Source: Sporosarcina pasteurii (GTDB taxonomy: Bacteria > Bacillota > Bacilli > Bacillales_A > Planococcaceae). From it: a stretch of DNA of 64,000 bases. The DNA lies in assembly GCF_041295575.1 (NCBI RefSeq), contig NZ_CP160452.1, forward strand, positions 1,364,001-1,428,000. Direction: 5' to 3'. A program made the translations under genes and the position numbers. Positions 9,250 through 61,157 of the stretch are shown here, in pieces (the first letter of the stretch is position 1; each line of letters starts with the position of its first letter). The notes beneath the pieces are model-generated. The model was not told the origin of the DNA, made no database searches, and saw only the letters and a program-made list of their open reading frames with translations.

Positions 9250-9522
9250 TAACTAACTATAAAATTTGCTGAAGACGTGGAGAGTAATGATAAATCTGTT
9301 TGTTCAGAGAGGGATGGACGTGGCTGAAATCCAACCTACAAACAATTATGATGAACAACACCACCGAGGCTCTTTATCGAAAGCATGAAATGATGAGTAG
9401 GTAAAGACGGAATCGGCCGTTATCCGAATACGAGTGGGCGTATAATACGCCAATTAGGGTGGAACCGCGGAAGCTATTAGGCTCTCGTCCCTTGCAATAT
9501 GCAAGGGGTGGGAGTCTTTTTT
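9250..9522 (+). promoter_or_regulatory. T-box riboswitch controlling hisS-aspS (histidine type)
   Basis: Leader RNA that senses uncharged tRNA and switches between terminator and antiterminator. The T-box core AGGGTGGAACCGCGG is at 9456-9470. A stable terminator follows (arms at about 9481-9495 and 9501-9516, then six T to 9522). Stem I carries the AGTA internal-loop motif at 9283-9286 and GAAC at 9353-9356 on the opposite strand. The tandem CAC triplets at 9359-9364 are plausible histidine specifiers, which fits the downstream hisS. The variable base of TGGN is A, which would pair best with a U discriminator rather than the C usual in tRNA-His; a mismatch there is tolerated in many T-boxes. 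The exact 5' edge is estimated. Confidence 0.9.
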
Positions 9523-12703: not shown

Positions 12704-12897
12704 AATACGAATCCTGAAGTGTTCGTTATTTGAAAGTCTGTTTTGACCCAACACTTCTATCGTAGGGAGTTTGTATTTTAGGATGTATGACATGCCTTTT
12801 TTAAAAAAAGGACGTCAGAAATTCTAAAGAGAACACCCACCTGCCGAACGCAGGTTCAAAACGATATTACAAAGACGGCACATTTGGGATTCGTGCT
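12704..12897 (+). ncRNA. ssrS: 6S RNA (BsrA/SsrS type)
   Basis: Regulatory RNA that mimics an open promoter and sequesters the housekeeping RNA polymerase. The region lies between aspS and the tcdA/yrvM homologue, where B. subtilis carries 6S-1 RNA, and is about 190 bases long. Its ends pair (GAATCC near 12709 with GGATTC at 12887-12892, extended by GAAGTG/CACATTT). The 5' side contains GTGTTCGTTATTTGA, which I recall as conserved in Firmicute 6S RNAs. A large internal region and a terminal hairpin (CACCTGC/GCAGGT) fit the 6S shape. A promoter upstream and a terminator downstream frame it. Confidence 0.82.
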
Positions 12898-23405: not shown

Positions 23406-25028
23406 TTGAAAAACACATTAACATTTCAGTTAGGCGCAATAATTGTTGGTATCATGATTGCGATGTTGGCGATTTCATCTTTCGCTACCTATAAAACAGC
23501 TTATGATAAATTATATGACGCGGCTGGGGTAGAAGCATATGGTTGTGCGAACATCACGACAGGATTAATTGAACCAGGTGATATTGTCAAAATTAAAAAT
23601 GGCGATACAAATACGATGGAAACAGTTGGAAAGCAATTAAACTGGACGACTGCACATAAAGATATCTTTGAAACGCAATACATCATTGACTTAGACGGTA
23701 ATCTGCTTGCTATGGATGATCATTTAGCGGCAAAAGGATTAAAAGTAGGAGATGCGATTCCAATAGATGATGAAGCGATTTCTACATTGTTAGAAACGAA
23801 GCATCCAACTTATTCGCAGCCTTATGAGTTTGCAGGTATTGAACGTTTATCAGGATATGCACCGATTTTTGAAAATCATGATTCATCTGGTGATGTGATT
23901 GCCATTAGTGTCATCGATTTTGATAATGCGATAGTTGCTGAAAGAACCTGGGACGTTGTTCGAAATGGCGTTTTAATCAGCTTAATTCCTATGGTGATTG
24001 CAGCAAGTATTACAATCTACTTAATTAGACGGAAAACAAGTCAAATTTCTTCGCTCATAAACCATGCAAGAGAAATTGCAGATGGGAATCTAGCAATTGA
24101 AGATACTGTTGTGAATAGTAGAGATGAAGTTGGCGATTTAGCGCGTACGTTAAATATGATGACGGCTAATTTGCGTAATATAATTGGAACGATGAAGACA
24201 ACCGCGGTTCAATTGACCAAAAACTCATCAGAAACGGCCATGTCATTAAATGAAATGCATGATGCGATTCAGCAAGTTGCTGCGAATATGAGCGACGTCA
24301 CGATTTCAATCTCAAATGGAACCGCAAATGCTGAGCATGCCTCATCCATTTTGGGAACATTGGCGGATAATATTCAAGCATCTAAAGTTACTGCGGATCG
24401 TTCTGTAGAAAACTCTAAAGCAACGATGCAAGTTGCAGAAAATGGCCAACAAAGAGCAAATGAAATTAACGAAGACATGGAGAAAATACGGACGGAATCA
24501 GTTGACTCTGGAAACACGATACAAAATCTCATAGAGTCCACAACAAAAATTCAAGATATTACAAGTACAATCGCGGGAATTGCCGCACAAACAAACTTGT
24601 TGGCATTGAATGCTTCCATTGAGGCAGCGCGTGCGGGAGAGCATGGCCAAGGGTTTGCTGTTGTTGCTGAAGAAGTTAGAAAGTTAGCGGAACAATCCAA
24701 TAGTGAAGTACTCGAAGTTGAGAAATTAGTTGCTGATATTACTGCCCATATACAGCAAGTTGTCTCTTCAACAGAAGAAAGTACAGCACTTATTGAATCT
24801 GGTACGAATACGGTTCGTTTAACTGCTGAATCGCTCAGTCAAGTCGCTCAAGCAGTTTCTAAAACCGTAGAGGAAATTAGTTCACTATCTGCATCAACAA
24901 CGATAGAAGCAGAAAGTTCGGAACAAGTTGTTCAGTTGATTAGCGAGTTGACACGTGAAATTCACACAATAGAAGATATGTCGATGAATATATCGGCTGC
25001 AACGGAAAGAAACGACAGCATCGATTGA
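23406..25028 (+). CDS. Methyl-accepting chemotaxis protein, C-terminus frameshifted
   Basis: Membrane chemoreceptor. An N-terminal helix (about residues 8-28) is followed by an extracellular Cache-like sensing domain to about 180 and a second helix near 188-207. A HAMP domain ([16 protein letters not shown]) and the cytoplasmic signalling domain follow, with the conserved hairpin [42 protein letters not shown] near residue 400. The start is TTG 23406 after GAGGAGG. As written it ends at 25028. One extra A in the run at 25010-25012 appears to shift the frame: the alternative frame continues from [14 protein letters not shown] and ends VVSRFKL at 25107, restoring a normal MCP tail. The signalling tip is intact. 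A sequencing error is possible. Confidence 0.9.
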
Positions 25029-47401: not shown

Positions 47402-47842
47402 ATGCCGTTTATTTCAATTGCGACGTTTATCGTGACAATCGGTTTTGCACTTGTTTGTATTTATATTGCCAGATTACTTCTTCGTGTTGCAGGTCTTATA
47501 AAGTCAATTGGACAAACAATCGATGAAGTGGAACGCCAATTAGATCATACAGTTTTGGAAGCCGAACAACTTATTTTAGGCATTGAACGAACAGCTACTG
47601 ACGTGGGAGAAAAGTTACAAGCTACAACAGGCATTTTCACTTCAGTACAAGAGGTGGGCAAAGCTACTTCACTCATGAGTGAAGAGTTTAAAAACAGAAC
47701 AAAAAGTTATGGACAAGACAGAGAACTGCTCGGAACGAAACCTTTTATACGATCCATCCAATGGGGAGAATACGCATCCGTATTATTTAAAGCTTGGCAT
47801 CGTGGAAAAAAGGTTGGGCTTCAGACAAAGCAACAGAAATGA
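47402..47842 (+). CDS. DUF948-type membrane-anchored protein, copy 1
   Basis: 146 residues: one N-terminal membrane helix (about 5-27) and then a heptad-rich cytoplasmic region (QTIDEVERQLDHTVLEAEQL, VGEKLQATTGIFTSVQEVG). This is the layout of DUF948 / YtxG general-stress proteins. GAGGAGGAGGG precedes the ATG by a few bases. It is 13 bases ahead of copy 2 on the same strand. Function of the family is unknown. Confidence 0.75.
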   Translation: MPFISIATFIVTIGFALVCIYIARLLLRVAGLIKSIGQTIDEVERQLDHTVLEAEQLILGIERTATDVGEKLQATTGIFTSVQEVGKATSLMSEEFKNRTKSYGQDRELLGTKPFIRSIQWGEYASVLFKAWHRGKKVGLQTKQQK

Positions 47843-47855
47843 AAAGAGGGATACT

Positions 47856-48308
47856 ATGGACTTAACAGGGATTGGTGTATTGTTAATCGGAATTGCTATT
47901 TTAATACTAGCCATTTTCTTCGCGCGAATTTTAAATAATATCGCTTCTATTTTAGGCGGTGTAGATAAGACCGTTGAACAACTCCCGAAACAATTAGACA
48001 ATATGTTTGATGAAACAGGGAAATTATTAAGCAATAGTAATAATACATTATCAGATGTCAATGAAAAGTTAGGTACATTAACGCCGCTTTTTCATGTCGT
48101 TGGAGATGTAGGAGAGTCGACACGTCGTTTATCTTCCAAGTTGGTTGATGTATCGAAATCAACAAAAAGTAAATTAGACACGGCTGATCCAACCGAACAA
48201 AAGACAAAACTCGGTGGCCTTTACGGTTCTACAGCACTTGGCTTCTATTTATTCCGTAAGCGTAAAGAATCGAAGCAAAATGATGGTTGGAAAAAGTACC
48301 AGTCATAA
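47856..48308 (+). CDS. DUF948-type membrane-anchored protein, copy 2
   Basis: 150 residues with N-terminal helix LTGIGVLLIGIAILILAIFF and the DUF948 core NNIASILGGVDKTVEQLPKQL, then NTLSDVNEKLGTLTPLFHVVGD. ATG 47856 follows AAAGAGGG; the frame is open upstream inside copy 1, but that part has no ribosome site. The C-terminal segment GGLYGSTALGFYLFRKRK has a counterpart in copy 3 (EGLYGVLSFVFYLSQK), showing these are close paralogues. Confidence 0.8.
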   Translation: MDLTGIGVLLIGIAILILAIFFARILNNIASILGGVDKTVEQLPKQLDNMFDETGKLLSNSNNTLSDVNEKLGTLTPLFHVVGDVGESTRRLSSKLVDVSKSTKSKLDTADPTEQKTKLGGLYGSTALGFYLFRKRKESKQNDGWKKYQS

Positions 48309-55749: not shown

Positions 55750-55789
55750 AAAAGTGTAGTCTAGTCACAATGCTAGGCTACACTTTTTT
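55750..55789. terminator. Bidirectional terminator between ahpF and the ABC exporter
   Basis: AAAAGTGTAG with TCTAG pairs with CTAGG and CTACACTTTT (about 55773-55787), with A/T runs on both sides. The stem contains the permease stop codon. Confidence 0.83.
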
Positions 55790-56635
55790 GCGCATGAGGA
55801 TTAATGAAAGACAAGAAAACAAAATTGTCGTGCCAATTAAGTAATACACGCTCCATAGGCTTTGGATTAGTACACCGTCCACTCGATAATGAACACCCAT
55901 ACCCAATTGGAAAGATTCTTTCATGTCACTGGGGGCTTGTGCAAAAGCATCAAGCATTGGAGACTCCATCAAAATTTGGCGGAAAAGGGATGCTGAATGT
56001 GATACAGGAAATAATTTTACTATCGTTTGTAAATAATCTGGCAATGTACCTATCGGAATATAAATTCCCGCTAAAAAGCCGAGAAGTGTCCCAAGCACTG
56101 TACTGGCCGCTGCAAAAGCATTTGAAGTTTTAAAAAAAGAGACAACAAAAAGCACCATGGCACTACTTGAAAGAACAGATAATACAATCACGCCAGTCAA
56201 TAAAAGCATATCTGACAATGTGGTCTGTGATTCTCCAATAGAAATAAAGAATAAATTTGCTGCAAGCAATGTCAATAAACACATGACGAAACCAATGAAT
56301 AAAGCGCTAATAATGTATCCGCCTACTAGCTTAGCTCTTGAAATCGGTGAAGCATAAAAATCCATATATCGTTTATTTGCTCGATCTTCAACTAAAATAC
56401 CGAATGCGCCTAATGTCGTGGTCATCGATGTAATCGCCAATACACCTGCGAGAAACCATGAATGCAATAATGATTTCTTTGAAGGAAAATCAGGGAGCCC
56501 CTTCGATGTCACATCACCTAAAAAGAAGACGTATAAGCCAATAAGAATGATAACGGCAAGCATCGAAAAGAAAACAGACGTCTTATCCCTGAAGTATAAT
56601 AAAATATTACGCTTTGTAAACGCCATTATCATCAT
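55778..56635 (-). CDS. ABC-2 type transporter permease
   Basis: 285-residue membrane protein with six helices: the first near residues 20-40, and a conserved ABC-2 centre MTTTLGAFGILVEDRANKRYMDFYASPISRAKLVGG near 75. The helices then run to LIGTTILFSCLSLILMRKK. The family exports drugs, lipids or peptides; substrate unknown. Its start overlaps the upstream ATPase gene by four bases, showing they were one operon. Since the ATPase is broken, the exporter may be off in this strain. Confidence 0.88.
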   Translation of the reverse strand: MMIMAFTKRNILLYFRDKTSVFFSMLAVIILIGLYVFFLGDVTSKGLPDFPSKKSLLHSWFLAGVLAITSMTTTLGAFGILVEDRANKRYMDFYASPISRAKLVGGYIISALFIGFVMCLLTLLAANLFFISIGESQTTLSDMLLLTGVIVLSVLSSSAMVLFVVSFFKTSNAFAAASTVLGTLLGFLAGIYIPIGTLPDYLQTIVKLFPVSHSASLFRQILMESPMLDAFAQAPSDMKESFQLGMGVHYRVDGVLIQSLWSVYYLIGTTILFSCLSLILMRKKV

Positions 56636-57565
56636 TCACCTTTTTCCTTTGTAATCTCTAGAAAGACATCGTCTAAGCTAGACTTTTTCACTTCAAATGA
56701 AGCAATGTATTCTTTATATTTTATTAATAAAGGAATTGCACACAATGTATCATTTAATGGAATGATAAAAAGAGTCTTATCTTCTATGAATTGAATACTA
56801 GTTTGTTTAAGAATTTCTTTAAAGTTTACTGGATCAATCGGTGTAATAAAAAGTGAATCTGTTGAGTAGTCATTTTTTAATTGTTCGGGTGTGCCCTTTA
56901 CAATAATTTTTCCTTTATCCATCACAACAACATAATCAGAGTTGGCTGCTTCCTCAATATAATGTGTCGTTAGAAAAACAGTCATTTTTGTTTCTCTTTG
57001 AAGTTGTAAAACAGTATTCCATAAACTTTTTCGGCTTTCTGCATCTAACCCTGTCGTTGGTTCATCCAAAATTAAAATAGAAGGCGTGTGGAGAAGGGCC
57101 CGTGCAATATCAGTACGTCGTCGTTCACCCCCAGATAATTTACCATATGGTCTGTCGAGAAATGATTGTAGACGAGTTAAAGTGGCTACTCTTTGAATCG
57201 CTTCTTCCAATTCCTTTTTGGACATGCCATATAAGGCACCGCGAGCCTTCAAGTTTTCATTGACGGTTAACAATGGATCCAGTAAGCTATCTTGAAAGAC
57301 AACCCCAATTTCTCGGCGTATCCGTTCATCCTCTTTGCCGACCGTAAATCCTTTCACCTTTACCTCGCCTTTACCTCGCCTTTACCTCGCCTTTATCATG
57401 TTTTAACAAGGTTAATAAAATAGAAATTGTTGTTGATTTTCCAGCTCCATTCGTTCCTAAAAACGAAAAAAGCGTACCTTCTTCAACGTGAAAGCTAATG
57501 TTTTTAACAGCTTGCACGTTCCCAAAGAATTTTGTTAAGCCATTTACTTCAATAATTTTTGTCAT
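56632..57565 (-). pseudogene. ABC exporter ATP-binding protein split by an 11-bp tandem repeat
   Basis: Two adjacent frames together make one ABC ATPase of DrrA type. The upstream part (57565-57371, 64 residues) has the N-terminus and Walker A FLGTNGAGKSTTIS. The downstream part (57357-56632, 241 residues) has the Q-loop VVFQDSLLDP, signature KLSGGERRRTDIARAL, Walker B SILILDEPTTGLD and the His-switch LTTHYIEEA. At the junction the 11-bp unit AAAGGCGAGGT occurs three times. With one unit the text would read through in frame (DKGEVKVKGFTVG); each extra unit puts a TAA at the junction. The GAGGT of the last unit could act as a ribosome site for GTG 57357, so a separate C-terminal fragment may be made. 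Phase variation, fixed mutation or assembly error are all possible. Confidence 0.85.
57362..57394 (-). repeat. Three perfect copies of an 11-bp tandem repeat inside the ABC ATPase gene
   Basis: Plus-strand unit ACCTCGCCTTT at 57362-57372, 57373-57383 and 57384-57394, preceded by a partial copy ACCTTT (57356-57361). Because 11 is not a multiple of three, copy number sets the reading frame. Confidence 0.95.
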
Positions 57566-57846: not shown

Positions 57847-59733
57847 ATGAGTCAATTGATCGTTGAAAATTTGTCCCATACGATTGGGGCGAAAACTTTA
57901 TTTAAAGAAATTGCTTTTACGATTACAAGCGGAGAGAAAGTAGGGCTAATTGGTATCAATGGCACAGGTAAATCTACCTTACTGTCGATACTAGCTGGAC
58001 TGGATGATGCCGATTCAATCACAATGGAACATCCCAATGATTACCGCATTGTTTATTTACCGCAAGAGCCTGAAGTTGACCCTGAACTAACTGTGTTAGA
58101 AACGGTGTTTAAAAGTGATGCACCTTTAATTCAGATGAACTTAGCTTATGAATATGCGGTACAAGCACTTACGGAAGACCCCGCTAACGAAGAAAACCAA
58201 AAGCAATTTGAAATCGTTCAAAATAAAATGGACACAAACGGAGGATGGGACTTAAACTCACAAGCGAGAACCATTTTAACACGTCTGGGGATTACGACAT
58301 TCGATAAAAAAATGGGTGAGTTATCAGGCGGGCAACAAAAAAGGGTTGCACTCGCAAAAGTACTGATTGAACCATCTGATTTATTATTATTAGATGAACC
58401 GACAAACCATTTAGACGTTGAATCTATCACTTGGCTCCAAGATTACTTAATGAACGAACAAGCAGCGGTCATTTTCGTCACGCATGACCGGTATTTTTTA
58501 GATGCTGTTTCAACACATATTTATGAATTGGCTGATCAACAACTTTATGCACATGCCGGTAATTACGGCGATTTTATTGAAGCCAAGGCATTGCGTGAAG
58601 AAATGCAAGCGGCGACAGAGAGTAAATTACAAAATCGTTTCCGTGCCGAATTAAAATGGATAAAGCGTGGGGCTCGGGCAAGATCGACAAAACAAAAAGC
58701 GAGAATTGGACGCTTTGAAGAACTGAAAGAACAAGTGAAAAAAGACAATGTCAATGATGAAATGGATGCGAACTTGAAGACCACACGACTTGGTAGAAAA
58801 GTGATTGAAGCAACAAATCTCTCTAAGTCATTTGGCGATAAAAAAATCATTGATAACTTTTCCTGTTTACTCCAATCTGGAGACCGTATAGCTATCGTAG
58901 GTCCTAACGGAGTGGGAAAAACAACATTACTCAATTTGTTTTCCGGTGAAATTACTTCAGATACTGGAGAGTTGGAAATAGGTTCTACAGTAAAAATTGC
59001 TCATTTCCATCAGCATATTCCCAAAATGGATGACCACAAAAGAATGATAGAATATATTCGTGAAACATCAAATGATATTGAAGATGCGAATGGCCAACGC
59101 ATTTCGGCTTCTCAAATGCTTGAGAGATTTTTATTCCCGTCGCGTGTTCACGGCACACTCATTGAAAAGTTATCCGGTGGTGAAAGAAAACGACTGTATT
59201 TATTAAAGTTGTTAATGGAACAACCGAATGTTCTTTTATTAGATGAGCCAACGAATGACCTAGACATAGAAACATTATCTATTTTGGAAGATTTTATTGA
59301 AACATTTCCAGGTGTCGTGTTAACTATTTCTCATGACCGATTCTTTTTAGACCGAACTTCATCTAAACTTTGGATTCTAGATGGTACAGGTAAAGTTATT
59401 ATACAAGACGGAATTTATACAGATTATTTAGAAACGCTAAATCAACCTGAAGAAATACCAGAGAAAGCACAAGAAGTAGCCCCTGAGAGAGTTAAGAAAA
59501 CAGTCCCAAAGAAAAGAATGTCATATATGGAAAAGAAAGAATGGGACACAATTGAACTAGAAATTGAGACAGTTGAAACGAAAATCGAAGAGATTGAAGC
59601 AGAAATGGAGTCAGCAGGCGCTGATTACGATAAACTAAGAGAACTGACCATTCAATTAGAAGAGAAGACAGCAGAGTATGAAAGATTATTTGAACGTTGG
59701 TCATATTTACAAGAATTACAGGAAAATATGTAG
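57847..59733 (+). CDS. ABC-F family ATPase (Uup/YfmR-like)
   Basis: 628-residue soluble protein with two ABC ATPase domains and no membrane part. First Walker A GINGTGKST near residue 38, signature LSGGQQKRVALAKVL near 160, Walker B LLLLDEPTNHLD near 180. The interdomain linker of ABC-F proteins follows (ARARSTKQKARIGRFEEL near 280). Second Walker A GPNGVGKTT near 352, signature LSGGERKRLYLLKLL near 443, Walker B LLLDEPTNDLD near 465. A C-terminal coiled coil (about 555-625) matches the Uup/YfmR branch, which acts on the ribosome to relieve stalled translation. The YfmR assignment is by resemblance only. Confidence 0.9.
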   Translation: MSQLIVENLSHTIGAKTLFKEIAFTITSGEKVGLIGINGTGKSTLLSILAGLDDADSITMEHPNDYRIVYLPQEPEVDPELTVLETVFKSDAPLIQMNLAYEYAVQALTEDPANEENQKQFEIVQNKMDTNGGWDLNSQARTILTRLGITTFDKKMGELSGGQQKRVALAKVLIEPSDLLLLDEPTNHLDVESITWLQDYLMNEQAAVIFVTHDRYFLDAVSTHIYELADQQLYAHAGNYGDFIEAKALREEMQAATESKLQNRFRAELKWIKRGARARSTKQKARIGRFEELKEQVKKDNVNDEMDANLKTTRLGRKVIEATNLSKSFGDKKIIDNFSCLLQSGDRIAIVGPNGVGKTTLLNLFSGEITSDTGELEIGSTVKIAHFHQHIPKMDDHKRMIEYIRETSNDIEDANGQRISASQMLERFLFPSRVHGTLIEKLSGGERKRLYLLKLLMEQPNVLLLDEPTNDLDIETLSILEDFIETFPGVVLTISHDRFFLDRTSSKLWILDGTGKVIIQDGIYTDYLETLNQPEEIPEKAQEVAPERVKKTVPKKRMSYMEKKEWDTIELEIETVETKIEEIEAEMESAGADYDKLRELTIQLEEKTAEYERLFERWSYLQELQENM

Positions 59734-59746
59734 GAGGAATTTTTAC

Positions 59747-60004
59747 ATGAAAATTACATCAATTGAAAGAACACCAAATCCAAACTCCATGAGGATTGTT
59801 TTTGATACTGAACTACCGGCAGGGACAAGTTACAATTATAAAAAAAGTGATGCAGACAATGCGATAGAACCAGCTGCATCTATGTTAAAAGTTAACGGTG
59901 TTGAAGGTATTTATCACGTAATGAACTTTATGGCCGTAGAAAGAAACGGAGACGTTGACTGGGATGTCATCATTCCAGAAATAGAAAAAGCCATCGACAA
60001 ATAA
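59747..60004 (+). CDS. Stand-alone Nfu N-terminal domain protein
   Basis: 85 residues. Family pattern ERTPNPNSMRIVFDTELPAG and VEGIYHVMNFMAVERNGDVDW. The domain is found at the N-terminus of Nfu Fe-S scaffold proteins, but the cysteine-bearing NifU part is missing here. It is strikingly similar to the first 85 residues of the next gene. ATG 59747 follows AGGAGG (the frame is open from 59678 inside the ABC-F gene). The gene starts 14 bases after the ABC-F stop. Confidence 0.85.
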   Translation: MKITSIERTPNPNSMRIVFDTELPAGTSYNYKKSDADNAIEPAASMLKVNGVEGIYHVMNFMAVERNGDVDWDVIIPEIEKAIDK

Positions 60005-60023
60005 TCATGAGGAGGACTTTCAA

Positions 60024-61157
60024 TTGAAAATCATTACGATTGAACCAACGCCGAGTCCAAACTCGATGAAAATTGTTTTGAATACAGAATTACCAGCTGG
60101 TACAAGTTACAATTATAAAAAAAGTGATGCGGAAACTGCACCGCATCCGATGTCTGACTTGCTCCAAGTAAATGGAGTGCGCGGCATTTATCATGTCATG
60201 AACTTTATGGCGGTAGAACGCGCAGGAAATGTTCCATGGGAAGCCATTTTAGCCGATATCCAAAAAATTATTAATGACGATGAAAAAGTAGAACATGCAA
60301 CGACAGAAGAACCTGTAGATGACAAATACGGGGAAGTTTACGTCCATGTACAAACGTATAAAGACATACCGTTGCAAGTAAAAGTGTTTGATAGTGCATC
60401 AGAAGCACGTTTTGGATTAAGTGATCGTTTTGTAAAGGCAATGGAAGTTGTCCATAGTTCCGAAGTAGAAAACTACATTTTACTTCGAAAGTGGGCAGAT
60501 TACGGGATTCGCTACGGCGAGAAAGAAGAGATTGGAGAAATTGTAGTCCAAGAAATTGAAGCTGCTTATCCAGAGGTACGATTGCAAGAAATTATTGAGC
60601 AATCGAAAGAAGGAATAGATGAACAGATTGAGCGCGGCCGAAAAGTATCTCTAGACGAATTCCAAGTAGATGAATGGGAGAAGCGTTTCCAATTGCTTGA
60701 TCAAATGCCAGACCCTGACATGTCAGATGCTCCGCTCTTAGATGTGGCGCTCGATGATGAAAAAATGTCTATCCGTAGACTAGCAACTGTCTATCTTGGT
60801 ATGATTGAAGATAAAGCAGTTGTTCCGTATATTGAAAAGGCACTAAAAGATAAAAGCTGGGCAGTAAGACGAACAGCAGGGGATTGCATGAGTGACCTTG
60901 GTTTTGAAGAGTTTGAGGATGCAGCAATTGAGCTACTCCAAGACCGTAACAAACTTGTACGTTGGCGTGCAGCGATGTTTTTATTTGAAACAGGTACTGA
61001 AAAGGCATTGCCTGCTTTAAGAGAAGCGGAAAATGATACAGAATTCGAAGTGAAACTTCAGGTTCGCATGGCGATTGCAAGAATTGCTGAAGGAGAAGAA
61101 GCACAAGGGTCGATCTGGAGACAGATGACTGAACTGCGTACGGGTGCAAAAGAATAA
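60024..61157 (+). CDS. Nfu N-terminal domain fused to HEAT-like repeats (CvfC/YpgR family)
   Basis: 377 residues. An Nfu N-terminal domain (1-87, IEPTPSPNSMKIVLNTELPAG) is followed by a middle region (about 100-215) and C-terminal HEAT-like repeats: MSIRRLATVYLGMIEDKAVV, KSWAVRRTAGDCMSDLGFEE, KLVRWRAAMFLFETGTEKAL and EVKLQVRMAIARIAEG. Same length and layout as S. aureus CvfC (conserved virulence factor C) and B. subtilis YpgR. TTG 60024 has GAGGAGG eight bases upstream. Molecular role unknown; Fe-S related or protein-binding. Confidence 0.88.
   Translation: MKIITIEPTPSPNSMKIVLNTELPAGTSYNYKKSDAETAPHPMSDLLQVNGVRGIYHVMNFMAVERAGNVPWEAILADIQKIINDDEKVEHATTEEPVDDKYGEVYVHVQTYKDIPLQVKVFDSASEARFGLSDRFVKAMEVVHSSEVENYILLRKWADYGIRYGEKEEIGEIVVQEIEAAYPEVRLQEIIEQSKEGIDEQIERGRKVSLDEFQVDEWEKRFQLLDQMPDPDMSDAPLLDVALDDEKMSIRRLATVYLGMIEDKAVVPYIEKALKDKSWAVRRTAGDCMSDLGFEEFEDAAIELLQDRNKLVRWRAAMFLFETGTEKALPALREAENDTEFEVKLQVRMAIARIAEGEEAQGSIWRQMTELRTGAKE

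Follow-up and report, generated by a model that had tools for sequence, protein, structure and literature searches.

An 11-bp tandem array divides an exporter ATPase gene in Sporosarcina pasteurii: a probable recent, lineage-private loss of function

In Sporosarcina pasteurii, a gene encoding the ATPase of a DrrA-type ABC-2 exporter is interrupted by three perfect tandem copies of an 11-bp unit, which form the boundary between its Walker A half and its signature/Walker B half. We think it likely, with a probability of about 0.78, that the interruption is a recent loss-of-function mutation private to this lineage. The best-supported cause, as judged from the alleles, is a short tandem duplication mediated by microhomology or slippage, which would have been followed by one more expansion. 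The first-pass annotation of this DNA had read the array as phase variation by slipped-strand mispairing or recombination. Much of that proposal survives, namely the frame break, an origin by slippage or recombination and a one-unit state in which the gene is open, but the idea of an evolved switch does not.

The array and the gene it divides

The locus lies in a 64-kb window (the whole stretch of DNA analysed, 64,000 nucleotides) of a genome assembled as one closed 3.30-Mb contig that is 99.99% complete. Tandem Repeats Finder assigns the array a period of 11, 3.5 copies and 100% matches, and it is the sole strong array in the area. Its period-11 match run extends over 28 bases, compared with a maximum of 9-13 in 30 simulated windows matched in dinucleotide composition and scanned at all periods from 5 to 30, and the doubled 11-bp unit has a single occurrence in the whole genome. 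The three perfect copies splitting the ATPase had been correctly recognised at the outset; the coordinates given then were off by one and are corrected in Table 1.

Table 1. Features of the divided ATPase gene and the adjoining permease gene, in window positions
Feature	Positions	Strand	Remarks
N-terminal ATPase piece	57371..57565	minus	64 aa; Walker A GTNGAGKST; ends at TAA 57371-57373 inside the array
11-bp tandem array	57357..57395	minus	TAAAGGCGAGG x3 + TAAAGG (3 full units + 6 bp); Tandem Repeats Finder
GAGG, possible ribosome-binding site	57363..57366	minus	five bases before GTG 57355-57357; sequence reading
C-terminal ATPase piece	56632..57357	minus	241 aa from a possible GTG restart; +1 frame; Q loop, LSGGE signature, Walker B ILILDEP, DrrA-type C-terminal domain
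ABC-2 permease	55778..56635	minus	285 aa, intact; ABC2_membrane (PF01061); 4-bp overlap with the end of the ATPase frame

Family profiles run across the break. Positions 1-43 of PF00005 are found in the N-terminal piece and positions 53-137 in the C-terminal piece, and the two pieces match successive parts of the NCBIfam drrA model (TIGR01188). A DrrA1-3_C domain (PF13732) is matched at the end of the ATPase with 28.3 bits, against a cut-off of 27.4. The locus therefore has the architecture of a DrrA-type ABC-2 exporter, that is, a single nucleotide-binding domain, a DrrA1-3 C-terminal domain and a separate ABC-2 permease. It resembles the DrrA/DrrB-type exporters (TIGR01188 subfamily, PF13732, PF01061) in the drrA matches of its ATPase and the ABC2_membrane match of its permease, and differs from them in that both ATPase pieces, scored singly (186 and 59 bits), fall below the drrA cut-off of 312.45. 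That the neighbouring permease is intact, as originally claimed, is borne out by its length and its domain match.

The consequence of the array for translation can be read directly from the frame. With at least two units, the N-terminal frame runs AAA GGC GAG GTA AAG GCG AGG TAA, whatever the total count. Since the TAA is in frame from the second unit on, only the one-unit allele is open, and alleles with two, three, four or more units are all closed. The earlier statement that one unit leaves the gene open and that two or three create a TAA is thus correct, and it extends to any count of two or more. A gene that carries a typical out-of-frame coding repeat is open at every third count. Such switches have a cyclic ON state, whereas here the gene is ON at n=1 only and added units never reopen it.

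The first-pass annotation had further suggested that the repeat carries a GAGG able to serve as a ribosome site for the C-terminal part. The motif is present, five bases before the GTG, but the intact one-unit gene of the sister species contains the same GAGG and GTG in identical bases. We have therefore dropped the repeat as the creator of an internal ribosome site.

Relatives, age and origin of the array

The closed genome of a sister species (G067), about 89% identical in DNA over the gene, carries a natural allele with exactly one unit, which encodes an uninterrupted ATPase of 303 aa. BLAST comparison of the two loci gave a single 22-bp gap, located exactly at the array, which is longer than the sister allele by that amount. 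With the intact sister protein as query (E <= 1e-60), an orthologue of the ATPase was found in 39 of 68 genus genomes, among which this species is represented by one. Among named relatives, the most similar proteins are those of Sporosarcina. An internal stop occurs in this genome alone, at the array TAA, and in none of the other 38 orthologues. The junction has one-unit length in all of the 31 other loci compared (some species being represented twice), the orthologue loci examined were free of exact tandem arrays of the type looked for, and no variation in unit number was seen among the sister and the other genus orthologues examined. The permease is intact in 41 of the 41 genus genomes with a match. 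The phase-variation proposal had itself named one unit in all related strains, together with one unit in the raw reads of this genome, as an outcome that would count against it, and as far as relatives are concerned this is the outcome, with 38 of 38 other orthologues intact and 31 junctions free of the repeat. On this sequence comparison, the array is private to this lineage and recent.

Rates of protein evolution are consistent with this age. Relative to the sister, dN/dS is 0.036 for the N-terminal part, 0.136 for the C-terminal part and 0.086 for the permease; seven neighbouring genes span 0.03-0.15, a range that covers all three. Amino-acid changes assigned to lineages with four outgroups number 9 in this lineage and 8 in that of the sister for the C-terminal part, and 5 and 8, respectively, for the permease. 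Because both halves of the gene evolve at normal rates and the changes are about even between the lineages, the break is recent. An old pseudogene under relaxed selection was considered and rejected, as neither dN/dS nor the lineage counts give any sign of relaxation.

How the array arose is suggested by a 17-bp stretch, TAAAGG-CGAGG-TAAAGG, that is common to the sister and this genome and that has grown here by exactly two 11-bp units. The ancestral one-unit allele thus contains a short direct repeat spaced by one unit, and a duplication between the two TAAAGG copies would give exactly the unit observed. Among the species examined, the TAAAGG pair at 11-bp spacing is confined to this genome and the sister. 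The 64-kb window holds 450 pairs of at least 6 bp at a spacing of 7-25 bp; such seeds are common, so that neither special design nor any particular explanation is needed for this one. We envisage that replication slippage or microhomology-mediated repair between the 6-bp TAAAGG copies duplicated one unit, and that the longer homology available after this first duplication then permitted the addition of the third. Read from the alleles, the third unit suggests array expansion of this kind. In cells that carry two or three units the exporter would be off. Loss of the extra units, to be expected of perfect copies lying side by side, would restore the frame at some low frequency, and the lesion can therefore probably revert.

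Alternatives to a recent loss of function

A more elaborate account of the same array would make it an evolved, phase-variable (contingency) locus, in which slipped-strand events frequently change the number of units, the gene is off with two or more and on with one, and the benefit of switching keeps the array in place. In its favour, the tandem copies are perfect and lie within coding sequence, the unit length is not a multiple of three, and the number of copies determines the frame; the permease is intact and protein evolution is slow, and the reversible short duplications in the reading frames of pneumococcal capsule genes (PMC4243769, PMC4022640) provide a precedent. In addition, an array of three units instead of two implies either more than one event or instability, as would suit a locus still undergoing change, and is a counterpoint to a simple break. 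On the other side, no relative has more than one unit, expansion can never restore a gene that is open only at n=1, and the exporter is patchily distributed in the genus (39 of 68 genomes), so that simple loss is possible. Genomes with contingency loci usually, though not obligatorily, contain further loci of like kind. In our sample of this genome, 464 kb made up of 20 stretches and the window (about 14% of the genome), there were ten exact arrays with a minimum of two units and 20 bp, and the one described here was alone among them in combining a non-triplet unit with the interruption of a recognised gene. Evolved phase variation is therefore unsupported, given the lack of unit-number variation in relatives, the non-cyclic ON state and the lack of a second array in 464 kb. 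We consider a contingency locus unlikely; that the array is kept or selected as a switch is not supported, there being no sign of it, and only the shape of the repeat points to phase variation. It is similarly doubtful that this species has a live reversible switch, with cultures in which cells with one, two and three units coexist and with some condition that favours those whose exporter is off.

If the array were an assembly or sequencing error, the organism would have one unit and an intact gene, as all its relatives do, and another suspicious frame change of 1 bp, in the gene at 23406-25028, could be taken to point the same way. However, at 39 bp the array is shorter than any common read, the excess, two perfect 11-bp units, is neither a homopolymer nor a 1-base indel and is untypical of sequencing error, and the contig is closed and nearly complete. 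Frame changes relative to the sister across the window amount to the array, the 1-bp insertion in the 23406-25028 gene and small differences near 47,700-47,850; with so few of them, the assembly is not generally frame-damaged, and we judge an error to be very improbable. Less probable again, to the point of being hard to credit, is a split gene that works, either by termination at the TAA and a restart 13 bases on at the GTG behind the GAGG, or by a +1 shift at AGG-TAA, which would yield a two-piece ATPase or a low level of the full-length one. A GAGG, five bases of spacing and a GTG do follow soon after the TAA, and the protein sequence of both pieces is conserved. Yet the motif and the start codon cannot be an adaptation when the intact sister gene has both, the split separates Walker A from the Q loop within a single nucleotide-binding domain, the split form is found in none of the 38 other orthologues, and a recent break accounts equally well for the conservation. 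We thus favor the recent, lineage-private loss of function.

Known systems and further observations in the genome

The closest known parallel to such a break is in pneumococcal capsule genes (serotypes 3, 8 and 37), in which reversible short duplications within reading frames lead to capsule loss and phase variation (Waite et al. 2001, 2003, as cited in PMC4243769, PMC4022640). There, as would apply here, a short tandem duplication inactivates a Gram-positive reading frame, which becomes functional again once the extra copy is precisely lost. By this analogy the break in the ATPase gene can probably revert; for insertions of up to 9 bp, reversion is expected at ~1e-5 at most (PMC4022640). The two cases differ in that, according to the citing articles, variants and revertants of the capsule genes were isolated and linked to phenotype, whereas ours is one genome with three units, not a simple duplication, in an exporter known from sequence alone.

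Microhomology-mediated tandem duplications (MTDs) offer a second parallel. In the fission yeast gene ssp1, a microhomology pair gives rise to a duplication and a premature stop, followed by reversion or expansion (Dan et al. 2021, via the review PMC13207564). As that review presents them, MTDs share with the present array the short direct repeats that flank the duplicated segment, the premature stop made by the copy and a two-copy state that can expand or revert; they are, however, subclonal variants in eukaryotic populations, whereas the array described here belongs to the consensus sequence of a bacterial genome, and its steps are reconstructed from alleles. In Mycobacterium tuberculosis Erdman, the copy number of promoter tandem repeats varies, recurs across lineages and is seen to vary within isogenic populations (PMC12817950). 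The feature shared with our case is a short tandem repeat that can differ in copy number within a population, with effects on expression; the differences are the promoter location, the recurrence and the isogenic-population variation, compared with a coding array in one genome (PMC12817950). A literature search for phase variation in Sporosarcina gave nothing relevant.

If the array is only a recent break, it illustrates neatly how a 6-bp direct repeat present by chance can give rise, within a single lineage, to a tandem array that disrupts a reading frame, and it cautions that an out-of-frame repeat need not be a switch. Should raw reads show mixed unit counts, the locus would become a simple system, in a soil bacterium that is harmless, for measuring reversible exporter inactivation, and a live switch, if true, would make this environmental member of the Bacillales an uncommon instance of phase variation by a coding repeat.

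Two arrays from the 464-kb sample were examined as possible second coding repeats and set aside. One, of 17 bp x2.1 (locus L093, 1182-1216), is at the end of an open frame without a family match. The other, ATACTGG x3 (L096, 18177-18197), is outside coding sequence and overlaps open frames without a Pfam match; its three perfect copies lie just upstream of an opposite-strand gene of 290 aa, as a promoter-region repeat whose copy number could vary. Elsewhere in the genome, a 30-bp in-frame unit is present in six exact copies inside a long open frame (L101, 15935-16113).

Several other features of the window deserve mention. The gene at 23406-25028, of methyl-accepting type as judged by eye, has its 1-bp insertion relative to the sister within a short stretch of A residues, about 25 bases ahead of the present stop, and its C-terminus is shortened and altered as a result, by a real mutation or by a sequencing error. 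At 47402-48308, two overlapping open frames with 1-bp indels relative to the sister around 47706 and 47852 probably correspond to the last part of a gene together with the spacer that separates it from the following one. Two adjacent genes at 59678-61157 encode proteins with nearly identical starts (MKITSIERTPNPNSM... and MKIITIEPTPSPNSM...); they are a tandem gene duplication, and the second of them has a long additional C-terminal region. Finally, a T-box leader (9263-9495) and a 6S RNA (12708-12894) both score well above their Rfam cut-offs.
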